From positions 124,001 through 188,000 of the forward strand of contig NZ_JAGQAZ010000003.1 of assembly GCF_024345375.1 (NCBI RefSeq): a stretch of DNA of 64,000 nt. Reading direction: 5' to 3'. The notes beneath the pieces are model-generated. The model was not told the DNA's origin. It did no database searches and saw nothing but the letters and a program-made list of their open reading frames with translations. Every line of letters starts with the position of its first letter. Within the stretch, counting starts at the first letter, position 1. The stretch comes from Cyanobium sp. WAJ14-Wanaka. GTDB lineage: Bacteria > Cyanobacteriota > Cyanobacteriia > PCC-6307 > Cyanobiaceae. The position numbers were made by a program, and so were the translations under genes. This document shows, in pieces, positions 1-8,299 of this stretch.

Positions 1-176
1 ACCCGAGTCGGTTTGGGCCCTTTGGCCTGCCCAGCCGCACGCCCCTGCCGGGCCTATGGCTCTGCGGTGATGCCATCTACCCCGGAGAGGGCACCGCCGG
101 GGTGAGCATGTCGGCCCTAACCGCCTGCCGCCAGCTGCTCCAGACCCGGGGCATCGGCCTGGCGCTGGAGCGTTAG
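1..176 (+). CDS. C-terminal end of a CrtD/CrtH-like carotenoid desaturase or isomerase (partial)
   Basis: The frame is open from base 3 to a TAG at 174-176, so only about the last 57 residues are present. The tail contains CGDAIYPGEG followed by GVSMSALTA. This is the C-terminal FAD-contacting region of the phytoene desaturase/carotene isomerase flavoprotein family, which desaturates or isomerises carotenoids at the membrane. From memory of picocyanobacterial gene order, a crtD-like gene often sits beside tyrA, which would favour a CrtD-type enzyme, but the fragment is too short to separate CrtD from CrtH. Its stop codon overlaps the stop of convergent tyrA (TTAG, 173-176). Confidence 0.7.
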   Translation, partial: PSRFGPFGLPSRTPLPGLWLCGDAIYPGEGTAGVSMSALTACRQLLQTRGIGLALER

Positions 177-195
177 TCGGGCGCTGGAGCGTTAG
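162..195. repeat. 15-bp direct repeat at the crtD-like/tyrA convergent junction
   Basis: The 15 bases gcgctggagcgttag occur at 162-176 and again at 181-195, a 19-bp period. The first copy carries the stop codon of the crtD-like gene. The second copy lies inside the last codons of tyrA on the other strand. It looks like a small tandem duplication that shifted where one gene ends relative to the other. Confidence 0.8.
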
Positions 196-1081
196 GGCTG
201 GCAGCCACAAATTGCGGCCGCAGGGCCTGGGCCTGGGCGAGGGTCGCCTGCAGATCCTGCCAATGGCCCTCCTGCAGTTGCTGCTCCAGGGCCTCGATCC
301 CCTCGCGATAACGGCCCAAGGCGGTGAGCAGGGCCGCCCGGTTGGTGCGCGCCATCAGGCTGCCCAGCTCAGGGTTGCCCCCACCCACCCGGGTCGTGTC
401 GGCAAAGCCCGTGGAGGCAAGCGCTCGCACCAAAGCAGGCAATTCAATGCCGCCCTCCTGGGCTGCCCCATCGGCCACCTGCAACAGGGCCGCACCGGCC
501 AAAACGGGCAGATGGGAGATGAGGGCCACAGCTTGGTCGTGCAGGCGGGGATCGCAGGTAAGCCACTGGGCCCCGAGGGCCAATGCCAAATCACGCACGG
601 CAGCGAGGGCCTCCGGGTCCGTGGAGAAATTGGGGGTGGCCACCCAAGGTCGACCGGCAAACAACCCGGGCAACCCCGCTTCCACCCCCGCCTCGGCGGT
701 ACCCGCCATCGGATGGCTGGCCACAAAGCGATCCACCAGCCTTTGCCAACGCTCCAAAACGGAGCCCTTCACCGAACCCACATCCGTAACCACGGCGGCC
801 TGGGGAATGGCCGCCAACCATTCGGGCGCCGGATCCAGCAAACGGTCTAAAGGCACGGCCAAAATCACCAGGCCGCAGCCCTCCAAGACCGCCGGATCGG
901 TGCTGACCGTGCCGGCCAAGCCCCTGGCCAAAGCCCTTTGGGCAGTGACTGGGCGATGCACCAGGGCCCGCACCTCTGCGCCGAGGCGACCCAGATCAAG
1001 CCCAATGGAACCGCCGATCAGGCCCATGCCGACGATGCCAACGGGCTGGCTACGCCATAGGGGGGAGGGGGCGTCTGTCAT
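173..1081 (-). CDS. tyrA: Prephenate/arogenate dehydrogenase TyrA
   Basis: A 302-residue cytoplasmic dehydrogenase of tyrosine biosynthesis. It should oxidatively decarboxylate prephenate or arogenate. The N-terminal Rossmann nucleotide-binding loop GIVGMGLIGGSIG is at residues 15-27. The family motifs VTDVGSVK (about 98-105) and SHPMAG (about 122-127, with the catalytic-type His) are intact. Cyanobacterial TyrA enzymes usually prefer arogenate and NADP; the basic HR pair after the second strand (about 42-43) fits NADP, but substrate choice is inferred. The ATG at 1079-1081 leaves 59 bp to the divergent helicase-like gene. Its last four bases overlap the stop of the crtD-like gene. No ACT domain is visible, so feedback through such a domain is not expected. 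Confidence 0.93.
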   Translation of the reverse strand: MTDAPSPLWRSQPVGIVGMGLIGGSIGLDLGRLGAEVRALVHRPVTAQRALARGLAGTVSTDPAVLEGCGLVILAVPLDRLLDPAPEWLAAIPQAAVVTDVGSVKGSVLERWQRLVDRFVASHPMAGTAEAGVEAGLPGLFAGRPWVATPNFSTDPEALAAVRDLALALGAQWLTCDPRLHDQAVALISHLPVLAGAALLQVADGAAQEGGIELPALVRALASTGFADTTRVGGGNPELGSLMARTNRAALLTALGRYREGIEALEQQLQEGHWQDLQATLAQAQALRPQFVAASPNAPAPD

Positions 1082-1140: not shown

Positions 1141-2589
1141 ATGCTCGAAGCCCGCGCCCACCACCAACTCAAGGCCCTGCTGCAAAGGGAGGGAGCCCAT
1201 GGCTGGCCCCACCACCTGAGCATGGGCCGGCTGGTAGCCCGTAGCCTGCGAAGGCAGGACCACACCCTGCTGCGCCTGGCCCCTGGCAGCGAAGAGAACT
1301 GGTGGATCAGCCTGCTGGTGCCCCTGGCCCTGGCCGAAGAACGGCTGGCCTTGGTGCTCAGTGAGTCAGCCCGCCAGCGTCTCCAACAGGTGGAGTTGCC
1401 CCGGCTGGCGGCAGCCGACGCCTGCCTCGCCCTGCCCTGGTTTGAAGGGCCCACAGCACCTAGGGAGGCGCGGGTTTGGGTACTTAGCCACCGCCAACTG
1501 GTTGAGGCCTGGCAAGCCGGACTCCTGGACAACCGCCAACTGGTGATCCCCGAAGCAGAAAAACTGGACAACCAGCTGCGCCAAGCCCTTGCGGTGGTTA
1601 TCCAGCCGGGGCACTGGGACCAACTGCGGCGCGCCCAGCCCAGGGCGGAAGCGGGCGTACTGGCCCTCCATGAACGGCTCAGCCGCCAACTGCTCGCCCA
1701 GCCGCGCAATCCCCAAAAGCAGGTAGCCATAGCCCCCGAAGACGAAGCCCCACTGCGCCACCTGCTCCAGGTGCTTGGCCCCTTGCCCCAGCCATGGCCG
1801 GCCTGGCTAGCTGCCGCGGGCCAGGGCTGGACCAGCTGGGCCCAGGTGGATCCCAACCAGCTGCAATGGGAGCTACATCGCCAGCCCCTGGAGCCGGAAA
1901 ATGCCTTGCCAGGGATCCTGGAGGCACGGGGCTGCATCCTGCTCGGCCAGGGCCTGGGCCCAGAACAAGGGGGCGCCCAACAGCTGGGCCTGGAGCCAAA
2001 TGTGGTGGTCGACCTTGGAGATCCGCCGCTGGCGGACCCACTGCCCCTGTTTGCGCCCCTGCGCCAACCCCTGCCAAACAGCCCTCACTACGGCGAACAC
2101 CTTCTCGACCAATGCCGGCGGCTAGTGCTGGGCCAAAAGCAATTGAGCGTGGTGCTGCTCGACGACCAGGCCCTCAGACTCCAGCTCACCAGCGGCCTGG
2201 CCGCGGAATTTGGCAGTCGGGTTAGCCACCAGAGCACGGCCCCCGATAGCAATGGGGTGATCTGCGCCAGCTGGGGTTGGTGGATCGAACACCAGGCGCG
2301 CCTGCCCCTGCCCGGCCAGCTGGTCGCCGCCCTGCTGCCCCTGGCCAGCCTGGAAGATCCCCTCACCGCCGCCAGGGTTGGGGCGCTGCGCCAGGAGGGC
2401 CGCGACTGGTTCCGCGAACGGCTCCTTCCCGACGCCCTAATCCAAATCCAATTGGCCAGCGCCGGTGTAAGGCGCAACGGCGGCCGCCTGGCCGTGCTCG
2501 ACGGGCGCCTACGGGGCCGCAGTTGGGGACAAAACGTTTTTAGGTGCCTGGAGCCCTGGGTGGCCTTAAGCCGGTTGCTGCCTCATTAG
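1141..2589 (+). CDS. DinG-family helicase-like protein lacking ATPase motifs
   Basis: A 482-residue protein that matches the family informally called DinG or helicase_C_2 near recA in picocyanobacteria. The C-terminal end (QLASAGVRRNGGRLAVLDGR, about residues 435-455) parallels the DinG motif-VI segment (QxxGRxxR...VxxLDxR). The expected Walker A (GxxxxGKT) near the N-terminus is absent: the place is taken by LAPGSEENWW. The DEAH box is represented only by IPEAEKLD (about 136-143). It is therefore probably unable to hydrolyse ATP, unless the alignment is misleading. The frame stays open upstream of 1141, so a longer non-ATG start inside the tyrA gap is possible. Function is unknown; DNA binding is only an inference from the family. 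Confidence 0.65.
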   Translation: MLEARAHHQLKALLQREGAHGWPHHLSMGRLVARSLRRQDHTLLRLAPGSEENWWISLLVPLALAEERLALVLSESARQRLQQVELPRLAAADACLALPWFEGPTAPREARVWVLSHRQLVEAWQAGLLDNRQLVIPEAEKLDNQLRQALAVVIQPGHWDQLRRAQPRAEAGVLALHERLSRQLLAQPRNPQKQVAIAPEDEAPLRHLLQVLGPLPQPWPAWLAAAGQGWTSWAQVDPNQLQWELHRQPLEPENALPGILEARGCILLGQGLGPEQGGAQQLGLEPNVVVDLGDPPLADPLPLFAPLRQPLPNSPHYGEHLLDQCRRLVLGQKQLSVVLLDDQALRLQLTSGLAAEFGSRVSHQSTAPDSNGVICASWGWWIEHQARLPLPGQLVAALLPLASLEDPLTAARVGALRQEGRDWFRERLLPDALIQIQLASAGVRRNGGRLAVLDGRLRGRSWGQNVFRCLEPWVALSRLLPH

Positions 2590-3320: not shown

Positions 3321-4502
3321 TCAGCCCGCCACTGGCAGCTCCTCTAGGGCCTCCATGGGTGTTGCGGCGGCAGCCTTAGCGGCAGCAGCTAAGGGCTTCA
3401 TTGAATTGGCACTGACCTCGGAGCCCTCGGTGAGCTTCTTCCGGGTCAGCTGCTCAATCACCTCCTTTTGCCCAGGGTTTTGCTCCAACCAGGTGATGGT
3501 GTTGTCGCGGCCCTGACCAATGTTGTCGCCGTCGTAGCTGTACCAGGCGCCCTTGCGGGTCACCACGCCGGTCTCCTCAGCCAAGTCGAGGAGGCAACCC
3601 AGGATGCTGATGCCGCGGCCAAACAGGATGTCGAACTCGGCAATGCGGAATGGGGGCGCCACCTTGTTTTTGGCCACCTTGACCTTGGCGCGGATGCCGT
3701 ATTCCTCGGTGCCACGCTTGAGGGTCTGAATGCGCCGAATATCCAGACGTACAGACGCATAGAACTTCAGGGCGTTACCGCCGGTGGTGGTCTCGGGGTT
3801 GCCGTAGGTAACTCCGATCTTTTGACGCAACTGGTTCAGGAAGATCACGGTGCAACCCGATTTGCCGATGTTGCCGGTGATCTTGCGCATGGCCTGGCTC
3901 ATGAGCCGGGCCTGGGCCCCCACGGCCAAATCCCCCATCTCACCCTCAATCTCAGCCCGGGGGGTGAGGGCCGCCACGGAGTCGACCACCACGATGTCTA
4001 CGGCCGCAGAACGCACCAGCTGGTCGACGATCTCTAGGGCCATCTCACCGGTATCCGGCTGGGAAACCAACAGGTTTTCAATGTCCACACCGAGGGCGGC
4101 GGCATAGACCGGATCCAGGGCATGTTCCGCGTCCACAAAGGCCGCCACCCCGCCACGCTTTTGCACTTCGGCAATGGCGTGCAGGGTGAGGGTTGTTTTG
4201 CCAGAGCTCTCGGGCCCATAGACCTCCACCACCCGGCCCTTCGGATAGCCGCCACCGAGGGCCAGATCCAGGGTCAGGGCACCAGTGGAGAAGGTCTCCA
4301 CCCGCATGCGGGAGGCATCCCCGAGGCGCATGATCGAGCCCTTGCCGAAGTTGCGCTCGATGTGGTTCAGCACAAGGCCTAGGGCCTTGTCCCGCTCTGC
4401 CGCAGCGCGGGAATCTGCTGCTGCAGAACGGGAATCTGCTGCGCTGGAAGCTCCCCCAGATGCGGGCGAAGCGCCTTGGGCGGCCTTGGAATCAACGGGC
4501 AT
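3321..4502 (-). CDS. recA: Recombinase RecA
   Basis: The 393-residue strand-exchange and LexA-coprotease protein of homologous recombination and the SOS response. The ATG at 4500-4502 gives [10 protein letters not shown]; a longer frame exists but its translation is unlike RecA. Residues 11-38 form an Ala/Ser-rich N-terminal extension with [12 protein letters not shown] repeats before the family's conserved start ([18 protein letters not shown]). Walker [10 protein letters not shown] is at about 96-104 and the core ends with the usual TRKKL region. No intein is present. It lies downstream of the HAD gene on the same strand, with a candidate SOS box in the gap and a terminator overlapping the neighbouring gene. 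Confidence 0.98.
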
Positions 4503-4634
4503 GGCAATCAAACAGAAAGATGGAACAGGCCGCAGGTATCGCGCAGTAGCCGTGCAAGACCAGCCCGAGGGGGCCATCCTGCGACCTCTAAGCAGCAAGT
4601 GCCACCTGAGGGGGCCGGCGTATCAATTGCGCAT

Positions 4635-5651: not shown

Positions 5652-7286
5652 TCAGGCTGGAAATACCCGCAGTCGCTGGGCCTGGCCCCGGCCAAGCACG
5701 GCCGTGCGCAGCTGGTAGTGGCCGGCAAATTCGGCCTGCAACTGGCGCACCCTGGCGCTGCGGGGCAATAGGTCCACCGGCTGGCCCTGGGGCAAAACCA
5801 CCTCCTCAACCGCCAGGCGACATTCCTCCAGCCCCCCCAGGTCGTCGTCGAAATCGGGTCCTAGGGAATCGGCAAGGGCCTCGGAGGCCGGAATTGCCTG
5901 GTTGGCCAGCAGCCGCTCCAAGCCCCGCTGAATTTGGGGCAGGGCAGAACTTTTGATAACCAAAATCGGAATTCCCAACTCCTGGGCCTGGCGACGTACG
6001 TGGGGATCTCGACCCAGCTGCTGGCGCACGCTCAACACCACGTCCGCCAGCTCCACGCTGCCTGCGGGCTCAACCGGCATTTGCCGTCCACGCACCACCT
6101 GCTCCAGCTCACGCCTACTGATCCCAGCCCCGTAGACCCGCAACAGCGGCCGAACTGGCGGGATAAGCCGCAATGGGGAAACTGGCCGCAGGGTTGGGCC
6201 TGGCCGCAGGGTTGGGCCTGGCCGCAAGTTTGGACCTGGCCTAAGCGCTAGGGGGGCCGGCAAAACAGGCTCCTGCACTTGCATTTGGCCATCGGCGCCC
6301 AGCTCCCGCACCTGGGGCCTGGCCAGCTGCCCCCGCAACAGCAGGTCAACGGTGCCGGCTACCTCCTGGTGAACCAACCAGCGCTGGCGGCTGTGCATCT
6401 CCACCGCCAAGGGGAAGGTGGGGTCGGCCGCCCTCTCCAAGACTGTCTTCTGGCTACGGCGCCGGCGGGCTTCCTCATCGCCCAAGGTGACCGTCTGGAT
6501 ACCGCCGATCAAGTCCGCAAGGGTCGGATTTTTAATCAGGTTTGCCAACTCGTTGCCATGGGCGGTGGCCACCAACATCACCCCCCGCTCCGCAATCGTG
6601 CGAGCTGCCTGGGCCTCCAACTCGGTGCCGATTTCATCGATAACGATGACCTCAGGCATGTGGTTTTCCACGGCCTCAATCATCACCTGGTGCTGCAGCT
6701 CAGGCCTGGCCACCTGCATGCGGCGGGCCCGACCAATGCCGGGGTGGGGGATGTCGCCATCGCCGGCGATTTCATTACTGGTGTCAATCACCACCACTCG
6801 GCGGCCAAAGTCGTCCGCCAAAACCCGGGCGATTTCCCTAAGGGCCGTGGTTTTGCCCACCCCGGGCCGCCCCATCAACAGCAGGGATTGGCCCGAATCG
6901 AGCAGATCACGCACCATCGCCACGGTGCCAAACACAGCACGACCCACCCGGCAGGTGAGTCCCACGACGGTTCCGCTGCGGTTGCGAATGGCGCTGATGC
7001 GGTGCAGGGTGCGCTCAATGCCAGAGCGGTTATCTCCGCCAAAGCTGCCGAGTTGATCAACCACCAACGCCAGATCAGCCCGGCTCACCGCTTCCGTGCC
7101 TAGGTCCCGCACCCGATCTGGATAGCGGGCCTCCGGCACCCGACCCAAATCCATCACCACCTCAATCAGTTGATCGCGGGCCTGGGCAGACGCCAGGGCC
7201 CTCCTGATCGCTAGGGGCAACACCGTGAGCAGGCGATCGAGATCGTCCGTAATCTGCTGGTGGGTGATCGGTTGGGAGCTCAGCAC
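5652..7286 (-). CDS. ycf45: Ycf45 / SpoIIIAA-like AAA ATPase with R3H-type C-terminal region
   Basis: From the GTG at 7284-7286 this is 544 residues. A P-loop ATPase core resembles the stage III sporulation protein AA/Ycf45 family: Walker A GRPGVGKTT at about 139-147 and a Walker B region VIVIDEIG at about 213-220, followed by a sensor-like ATAHGNEL. The C-terminal quarter is a basic single-strand nucleic acid-binding R3H-like region in this family. Between them lies a Pro/Arg linker made of LRPGPT repeats. An ATG at 7361 would extend it 25 residues into ldpA; the GTG start overlaps the ldpA stop by 7 bp, which suggests translational coupling. The cellular role of Ycf45 is not established. 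Confidence 0.85.
   Translation of the reverse strand: MLSSQPITHQQITDDLDRLLTVLPLAIRRALASAQARDQLIEVVMDLGRVPEARYPDRVRDLGTEAVSRADLALVVDQLGSFGGDNRSGIERTLHRISAIRNRSGTVVGLTCRVGRAVFGTVAMVRDLLDSGQSLLLMGRPGVGKTTALREIARVLADDFGRRVVVIDTSNEIAGDGDIPHPGIGRARRMQVARPELQHQVMIEAVENHMPEVIVIDEIGTELEAQAARTIAERGVMLVATAHGNELANLIKNPTLADLIGGIQTVTLGDEEARRRRSQKTVLERAADPTFPLAVEMHSRQRWLVHQEVAGTVDLLLRGQLARPQVRELGADGQMQVQEPVLPAPLALRPGPNLRPGPTLRPGPTLRPVSPLRLIPPVRPLLRVYGAGISRRELEQVVRGRQMPVEPAGSVELADVVLSVRQQLGRDPHVRRQAQELGIPILVIKSSALPQIQRGLERLLANQAIPASEALADSLGPDFDDDLGGLEECRLAVEEVVLPQGQPVDLLPRSARVRQLQAEFAGHYQLRTAVLGRGQAQRLRVFPA
6176..6241 (-). repeat. 18-bp tandem repeat encoding LRPGPT units in ycf45
   Basis: The unit gccgcagggttgggcctg and close variants recur about three and a half times head to tail. 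On the minus strand they encode LRPGPN-LRPGPT-LRPGPT-LRPVSP, a proline-rich linker at about residues 349-370 of Ycf45. Period 18 keeps the frame, so unit number can change without breaking the gene. Confidence 0.85.
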
Positions 7287-8299
7287 CGCTGGCCTGGGAA
7301 TGGCTGCCGTTCTAGCCAAGGCTGCACCAAAGACCGGGCCTCCCCCAGGGCCTGGGGCCACAGCTCGGCATCGGCGAGCAGGCCCTGGCCCCGCTCCTGG
7401 GCGGCCAGTAGCCAGGGTTGGAGCAGGCGGCGCGCCACCCCGCCAAAGGCCACTCCAGCCACAAAGGGGGCGAGTTTTGGCCTTAGCTGGAGCTGCACCA
7501 GGGTTTGGCCATTGGTACCGCCCGCCAGTTGCAGGGGGCCCGGCGGGGCCAGGGGTAGGCGTGCGGCCAGCAACTTCACTGCGGCATGGGCCATGCCACC
7601 CCCCACATCACCGCTCATCGGCCGGCCATCCAACTGCCAAAGCGGCGCCAAGCCGAGATCGCGCAGCAGGCGATAACGCTGCCAAAGCTCCGCAGGCTGC
7701 ACATCGATGGCCGCACTCACCGCCAGACGCCCCAAGCTGATGCCACTGGCAACCACCTGGCCAAGGCGCTCGGCAAAAGCATCTAGCCGGCCCGGCTGGG
7801 TATGGATCTCAACCGCATCGGGCCGGATCGAGGCCAGCAGGGGGGGCACGGCAGCCGGTGCCAGCACCTGGGAGTGCTCCCCAATCAGGCCATGGGGGCA
7901 GGCCGGCAGGCAGCGGCCACAGCCATAGCAACGCTCGGCCAGCACGCCCATTGAGCCGGTAGCCGCCTGGCCAATCGCCAGGGCCGGGCAGACCCTTTCA
8001 CAGGGCCTGGGGCAGCCGGTTGGGCAGCGCCCGGGATCAAACCAGGCCTTGCGGAAGTGGGGATCAGCCCCATCACTGAGGCTCACCATCAGCCAGGGCC
8101 TGGTTGCACCGCGCGCCTGTGCCCAGGCGATTCCCCTTTCGATCGCCGCCGCCACGGCCAGATCAGCCGCGCCGTCGATGCAATGCACGCCTGCAAGTGC
8201 ATAGATGCCGCAGAGATCCTCAATCGCGGCCAAATCCTGGTTGCTCGCCCCACAGATCAACTTGACCCAACGCCCCTGGGCCAGGGCCTGCTCAGCCAC
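7280..8299 (-). CDS. ldpA: LdpA, iron-sulfur protein of circadian light input
   Basis: The GTG at 8297-8299 (or the TTG at 8300-8302) gives about 339 residues, close to the family length of about 350. There is no nearby ATG that fits. The N-terminal GRWVKLICGASNQDL and CIDGAADLAVAAA match LdpA. Two cysteine clusters are present: CPTGCPRPCERVCP and CYGCGRCLPACP, the latter a classical 4Fe-4S ferredoxin motif. In Synechococcus elongatus, LdpA tunes clock period to light and senses cellular redox state linked to the plastoquinone pool. It starts 8 bp after the ndhN stop and its own stop overlaps the ycf45 start. Confidence 0.88.
   Translation of the reverse strand: MAEQALAQGRWVKLICGASNQDLAAIEDLCGIYALAGVHCIDGAADLAVAAAIERGIAWAQARGATRPWLMVSLSDGADPHFRKAWFDPGRCPTGCPRPCERVCPALAIGQAATGSMGVLAERCYGCGRCLPACPHGLIGEHSQVLAPAAVPPLLASIRPDAVEIHTQPGRLDAFAERLGQVVASGISLGRLAVSAAIDVQPAELWQRYRLLRDLGLAPLWQLDGRPMSGDVGGGMAHAAVKLLAARLPLAPPGPLQLAGGTNGQTLVQLQLRPKLAPFVAGVAFGGVARRLLQPWLLAAQERGQGLLADAELWPQALGEARSLVQPWLERQPFPGQRC

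Follow-up and report, generated by a model that had tools for sequence, protein, structure and literature searches.

The window, a 64,000-nucleotide stretch of a contig from Cyanobium sp. WAJ14-Wanaka, harbors at positions 1141..2589 of the forward strand an ATG-initiated open reading frame of 482 codons without an internal stop, which encodes a pseudo-helicase of the short DinG type (sDinG). As indicated by Pfam, the gene is flanked by the divergent tyrA gene for prephenate/arogenate dehydrogenase (173..1081, reverse strand) and, directly downstream on its own strand, by the gene for a DUF2839 protein (PF10999; 2625..2864), followed on the same strand by the gene for a DUF1815 protein (PF08844; 2960..3310) and by the convergent recA gene (3321..4502, reverse strand), the start of which was placed at the Met of MPVDS in a frame open to position 4598. 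In the same region, ORF 5652-7361 (reverse strand) fuses a SpoIIIAA-like AAA ATPase to a PF25516 'phosphotyrosine protein phosphatase' segment. Comparison of gene 1141..2589 with seven close homologues yielded dN/dS values of 0.15-0.32 at dS values of 0.79-1.12, which are near saturation. The ORF is a real gene under purifying selection and, given these ratios, does not have the look of decay, in line with an earlier note on this DNA that had described a protein of 482 residues without frameshift. A phage origin was rejected, as tblastn (1e-5) matched 0 phage records.

A Pfam scan of the 482-residue protein returned only a chance hit and assigned no family, and phmmer against PDB sequences likewise gave a chance hit only. 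Five DinG-family models of NCBIfam matched residues 398-472 and nearby, all far under their cut-offs, the best being YoaA with an E-value of 4.8e-8 for the C-terminal end alone (residues 398-472). For profile comparison, an alignment of 35 homologues of the window protein (A1, hereafter the dead set) was compared by hhalign with an alignment of 15 active DinG proteins (A3), comprising 11 from the same phylum outside the class, two from genomes of the class, and E. coli DinG and YoaA. The two profiles matched with a probability of 100 and an E-value of 1.5e-44 over 465 columns, spanning the N-terminal helix to the C-terminus. Moreover, AlphaFold2, supplied with 59 sequences (the window protein and 58 of 80 named loci), produced a model with a pLDDT of 88.4 and a pTM of 0.86. 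The top Foldseek matches of this model were the E. coli DinG chains 6fws_B (E 2.0e-17) and 6fwr_A (E 3.3e-17), and VIA-align superimposed 467 residues on S. aureus DinG (8zef_A; Z 25.1, rmsd 3.5), while the first row other than DinG or XPD, which belongs to a DEAD-box protein, came only at rank 34 (Z 16.9). Taken together, these results show that the kinship with DinG covers the whole protein, beyond the C-terminal end from which it had originally been deduced. Judged by the predicted structure and the profile comparison, the protein contains the two RecA-like domains of the DinG fold, and it is a member of the DinG/XPD family (SF2, XPD-like) along its full length.

The ATP site of this fold is degenerate throughout. 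The pattern [AG]xxxxGK[ST] does not occur in the 482-residue protein, and at Walker A, where most active DinG proteins read EAGTGxGKS, the aligned segment is RLAPGSEENWWIS (residues 45-56; 1273..1308, forward strand, as for all features of the gene). The DEAH column of active DinG coincides exactly with IPEAEKLD (residues 136-143; 1546..1569), just as the earlier note had stated, and motif III, SAT in active DinG, is degenerate as well (residues 267-272; 1939..1956). Walker A and SAT are lost in 35/35 aligned homologues, and in 0/35 does the DEAH box keep its D together with its E: the picocyanobacterial IPEAE retains the E, IDGADD, the commonest form elsewhere, retains the D, some homologues have neither, and the dead copy of genome G048 retains D and H (DGAH). 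Of motif V, SFWEG, the 14 dead sequences listed (out of 35) retain FW or WW, with one TW exception, and have lost EG. Motif VI (residues 437-444; 2449..2472) is destroyed with respect to its consensus QxxGRxxR; the Arg of GR is gone in all 35 dead homologues and the Gly in 34, while Arg444 is fixed among the dead sequences but not among the active ones. What remains is the strand that follows, ILDxRLxxKxYG in active DinG and VLDGRLRGRSWG in the window protein; the stretch VRRNGGRLAVLDGR, previously read as motif-VI-like, is therefore not motif VI. The position of the helicase Q motif is taken by the N-terminal helix WPHHLSMGRLVARSLRR (residues 22-38; 1204..1254), in which the Q-motif Arg of 22/22 active sequences (a set that excludes Thermus) is replaced by Trp22 in 33/33 dead ones. 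By alignment, the ATP-binding residues are thus absent from the window protein.

The same alignments place a deletion at residues ~100-112 (1438..1476), the site of the missing Fe-S cluster domain. The region from motif Ia to the TNH strand comprises 13-40 residues in the 35 dead proteins versus 95-118 in the 15 active ones, and the arch, from DEAH to the WVELD strand, 75-122 versus 125-164 residues. Read from this spacing, the dead proteins have lost the Fe-S domain and possess a shortened arch. With a destroyed ATP site and no Fe-S domain, the protein would be expected neither to hydrolyze ATP nor to unwind DNA.

Homologues were present in 56 of 60 related genomes; no match was obtained in G058 and in three picocyanobacterial genomes of the window's own family (G022, G034 and G036; 71, 65 and 90% complete, respectively). 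The Walker A pattern was found in none of the copies of 54 loci, among them L018 and L019, which end before the site. In a sample of 291 genomes of the phylum, 148 matched the A1 profile, namely 136 of the window's class and 12 others. Within the class, 136 of 138 genomes match along most of the profile, a denominator for which all remaining misses were taken as other classes, 123 of them by listing order; no stop was reported inside the listed matches. The copy of G179 matches in two pieces; at this locus (L162, G179:C1:479723-481426) ~235 bases lie between profile positions 214 and 217 within an open frame of 590 residues. The class misses listed, G058 and G323, belong to the Pseudanabaenaceae, a family assigned through plasmids 100% identical to Synechococcus sp. 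PCC 7502 and Pseudanabaena sp. PCC 7367 (two genomes), and the A1 profile, positive in the phylum sample, matched 0/38 genomes of this family. The 12 matches outside the class cover the C-terminal half, and all 11 that were fetched have intact Walker A and DEAH motifs. One picocyanobacterial sDinG match of 63% identity (L138, CALPNT020000014.1) carries the title of a Bifidobacterium breve MAG and looks mislabelled or contaminated.

Dead copies without Walker A were also observed in seven genomes of families f13 and f55 (G048, G338, G345, G362, G372, G381 and G389). We take G048 to be Gloeobacter violaceus, so that f13 would be the Gloeobacter family and f54/f55 its relatives. The loss of Walker A is accordingly common to the homologues, and the case in which it was lost only here, named in the earlier note as refuting its reading, is excluded by the alignment of 35 and by these Gloeobacter-type copies. 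In trees of 56 sequences, rooted by choice on Thermus and calculated with 7 of the 35 dead sequences and the Gloeobacter-type L175 excluded, the dead sequences form one clade with support of 90 (all columns) and 97 (HD2, the second RecA-like domain). At 1.44 and 1.18 substitutions per site, its stem is long in both trees, and the later branches are much shorter. The clade stands beside, not within, an active clade that unites DinG from same-phylum and Gloeobacter-type genomes, from G055 and from one actinobacterium, with support of 87 (all columns) and 81 (HD2). The dead clade may be orthologous to active DinG or stem from an older duplication, the long stem leaving its exact place unsure. The single clade, together with the dead copies in f13 and f55, indicates that the ATP site was most likely lost in one event, before the Gloeobacter-type lines diverged.

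Active-type DinG is rare in the class, being present in 9/291 class genomes, six of which belong to family f13. The active profile matches 254/291 class genomes, mostly far more weakly than true DinG and over the part common with the dead protein; among the 20 listed of its 37 misses are 19 Pseudanabaenaceae and G343 (87% complete). Scores of 648-765 bits were reached only in G048, G338, G345, G362, G372, G055, G354 and G381, and G397 contains a piece of 164 residues. The active copies of G048, G055, G354, G372 and G381 have Walker A in 5/5 cases and DEAH in all except G055. The latter copy (L059, G055:C27:242813-244795; family f20) reads DEMH and clusters in the trees with active copies from Gloeobacter-type genomes at supports of 98 and 89. 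In L058, L059, L169, L170 and L171, the last three read by eye, the first Fe-S cysteine position is Ser (VSKRR/LSKRR), and the Fe-S cluster of these proteins may be altered. Most of the class genomes sampled thus contain the dead protein and no active-type DinG. As judged from this distribution, the active gene was most likely lost later in most cyanobacteria, and it may have been gained independently in a few lines.

The earlier note had linked the gene to recombination through its position near recA. Among 113 picocyanobacterial loci, which include duplicate genomes, DUF2839 was found at 112, tyrA at 111, recA at 108 and DUF1815 at 97; among 22 other cyanobacterial loci, which extend only ~2.5-4 kb per side, the numbers were 10 for DUF2839, 7 for DUF1815, 5 for tyrA and 0 for recA. 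These counts are lower bounds, as the loci are short, the queries were derived from the window and only the four named genes were counted. Within the reach of these loci, the adjacency to recA is confined to picocyanobacteria, and a recombination link drawn from it is rejected as a general role. Genome G337, presumably S. elongatus PCC 6301, has the order tyrA, sDinG, DUF2839, DUF1815.

The presence of the dead proteins in 136/138 class genomes, the low dN/dS values and the long stem followed by short branches all argue that sDinG is being kept. Probably, it is retained for another job than ATP-driven unwinding. The lowest-entropy 20-residue blocks comprise residues 21-40 and, in HD2, residues 341-360 and 401-460. 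The N-terminal helix retains Arg30, Arg34 and Arg37 in 35, 34 and 33 of the 35 dead homologues, respectively. In HD2, the P motif PLASLE (residues 400-405; 2338..2355) contains Pro400 in 35/35, and Phe424 of the segment Asp422-Trp423-Phe424 (2404..2412), which aligns with E. coli DinG Phe638, is Phe in 35/35 dead and 15/15 active proteins. Pro400, Pro407, Trp423, Phe424, Leu429, Pro430, Asp454, Arg456 and Gly463 are among the residues common to dead and active DinG, and these may have a structural role only. In the E. coli DinG-DNA complex, HD1 contacts three bases and HD2 seven, Phe638 stacks on a deoxyribose of the bound ssDNA and the P motif lies in the base path (PMC6300356).

These data lead to a model to which we give an even chance, namely that sDinG is an ATP-independent binding module. 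HD2, with the P motif and Phe424 retained, would grip ssDNA or a protein on ssDNA, and the strongly conserved N-terminal basic helix would meet a partner, so that sDinG could be a scaffold within a complex for genome maintenance, comparable to the structural role of XPD in TFIIH. The proposed grip by HD2 is suggested by the invariance of Pro400 and Phe424, by the low-entropy blocks of HD2, and by a published model of the Nostoc sDinG with DNA on the second motor domain, MD2, only (PMC11981726). Several observations speak against such a scaffold. The E. coli DNA contact R211, which lies on the Fe-S side and is present in 14/15 active proteins, is without equivalent in the dead set, and the position of E. 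coli Phe615 is Ile or Leu in 29/35 of them; of a further E. coli residue, R117, only 1/15 of the active set retains the Arg. The net charge of HD2 is uninformative, as its median is +1 for both dead and active proteins and its value in the window protein is -3, and charge counts did not separate the two groups. Moreover, sDinG is dispensable in one entire family (0/38) and had no match in the three picocyanobacterial genomes.

A rather unlikely alternative is that the helicase cleft has been reused for a different ligand, for instance a peptide or some nucleotide signal, which would make sDinG a sensor or regulator instead of a DNA scaffold. Seventeen residues are fixed in the dead but not in the active proteins, and those near the former motifs would fit a rebuilt cleft: Trp22 (Q motif), Leu345, Ala354, Gly358 and Val361 (after motif IV), Pro391 (motif V), Arg444 (motif VI) and Arg460. 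However, they may merely repack the core after the loss of ATP binding. An extended version, which we regard with similar reserve, would place a single loss of the motor and the Fe-S domain from one DinG copy in the stem lineage of cyanobacteria, ahead of the branching of Gloeobacter. The cleft of this copy would have been rebuilt as a new binding site on which almost all cyanobacteria still depend, and almost all of them would later have dropped the working DinG, resulting in a cyanobacteria-specific sensor or clamp.

RecC and AddB are structural partner subunits in RecBCD and AddAB, and dead helicase-like subunits occur in active complexes. By this precedent, sDinG could provide the grip as partner subunit of an active enzyme, while another protein hydrolyzes ATP; we hold this to be improbable to about the same degree as the reuse of the cleft. 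DinG relatives do have partners, as E. coli YoaA binds HolC via its last 18 residues (PMC8378479). Yet HolC (chi, PF04364) was found in 0/25 cyanobacterial genomes, including that of the window, with positive E. coli and Caulobacter controls, and a HolC partnership was rejected. The recurrent neighbors of sDinG are tyrA, DUF2839 and DUF1815, with no helicase or nuclease among the four named genes counted, and active-type DinG occurs in too few of the genomes with the dead protein to be a general partner.

A joint function with DUF1815, perhaps also DUF2839, in a cyanobacterial process not necessarily related to DNA is less probable still. Outside picocyanobacteria these are the same-strand neighbors (DUF2839 at 10/22 and DUF1815 at 7/22 loci), and DUF1815, present in 158/194 class genomes, had a match in 0/38 Pseudanabaenaceae, the very genomes without sDinG. 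In contrast, each of these 38 genomes has DUF2839, so the co-loss of DUF2839 with sDinG is rejected. The co-loss of DUF1815 holds in this one family, and a single shared loss is weak evidence; elsewhere DUF1815 was lost alone while sDinG was kept, as in 12 genomes of the window's own family, most of which are small, among the 20 DUF1815 misses listed, and in G342, G374 and G360. The genomes of 1.6-1.8 Mb we take to be Prochlorococcus. Finally, a relic in slow decay, to which the degraded motifs might point, is hardly credible in view of the near-complete retention, the listed matches free of reported stops, the apparently single ancient loss and dN/dS values well under 1. The preferred reading remains that of an ATP-independent binding module.

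The window protein is a member of an already described architecture. A 2025 review (Cheng 2025) names sDinG (short-type DinG) as a cyanobacterial protein made up of no more than MD1, MD2 and a short arch, without an Fe-S domain and without the ATP-site residues (PMC11981726, section 3.9). The text of the review names it from Nostocales, Chroococcidiopsidales and Pleurocapsales, describes an AlphaFold3 model of Nostoc sDinG in which DNA was placed on MD2 only and ATP could not be modelled in the site, and says that no study had tested the function of sDinG (PMC11981726). A literature word search for sDinG gave no other paper among the matches listed. Like sDinG, the window protein has two RecA-like domains of the DinG fold, and its family has a shortened arch, no Fe-S or pseudo-Fe-S domain and no ATP-binding residues; its residue mapping would be compatible with a DNA path on MD2 only. 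A member of the same family from Nostoc, the copy of Nostoc sp. UHCC 0870 (identified by its plasmid), scores 661 bits against the window-family profile; the protein that the paper names is that of PCC 7120. The reading of the earlier note was upheld as to the DinG kinship and the missing ATPase motifs, but it had made no mention of the Fe-S deletion, and the architecture is already in print (PMC11981726). Beyond the three orders of that text, the family extends to picocyanobacteria and Gloeobacter-type genomes, and where the paper gives the ATP site of the Nostoc protein an additional helix (PMC11981726), the model of the window protein has only a loop (residues 47-53).

With E. coli YoaA and DinG (636 and 716 residues), the window protein shares the fold, the order of motifs and the strand after motif VI. 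However, the E. coli proteins have Walker A, DEAH (DEGH in DinG) and the Fe-S cysteines, and the window protein differs from active DinG/YoaA in lacking Walker A GxGKS/T, DEAH, the cysteine-bearing Fe-S domain and motif VI QxxGRxxR. The same-phylum DinG proteins outside the class (L150-L159 and L163) match the C-terminal half of the A1 profile, mostly with E-values of 1e-35 to 1e-45, but have Walker A and DEAH intact in 11/11 and three Fe-S cysteines at the corresponding alignment positions in 10/11. The genes of the dead proteins could be called DinG helicases from the C-terminal end alone, to which the NCBIfam matches are limited, despite the missing ATP site, and as most class genomes sampled contain the dead protein and no active DinG, claims on DinG functions in cyanobacteria call for care. 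As far as the literature was searched, it is new that the family spans nearly the whole class, that it apparently arose once and early, and that Pseudanabaenaceae lack it; the scarcity of active DinG and the identity of the neighboring genes are new as well. sDinG represents a helicase fold without its motor, apparently fixed once and retained nearly throughout a group of great age, which makes it a good test of the non-unwinding roles of helicase folds.
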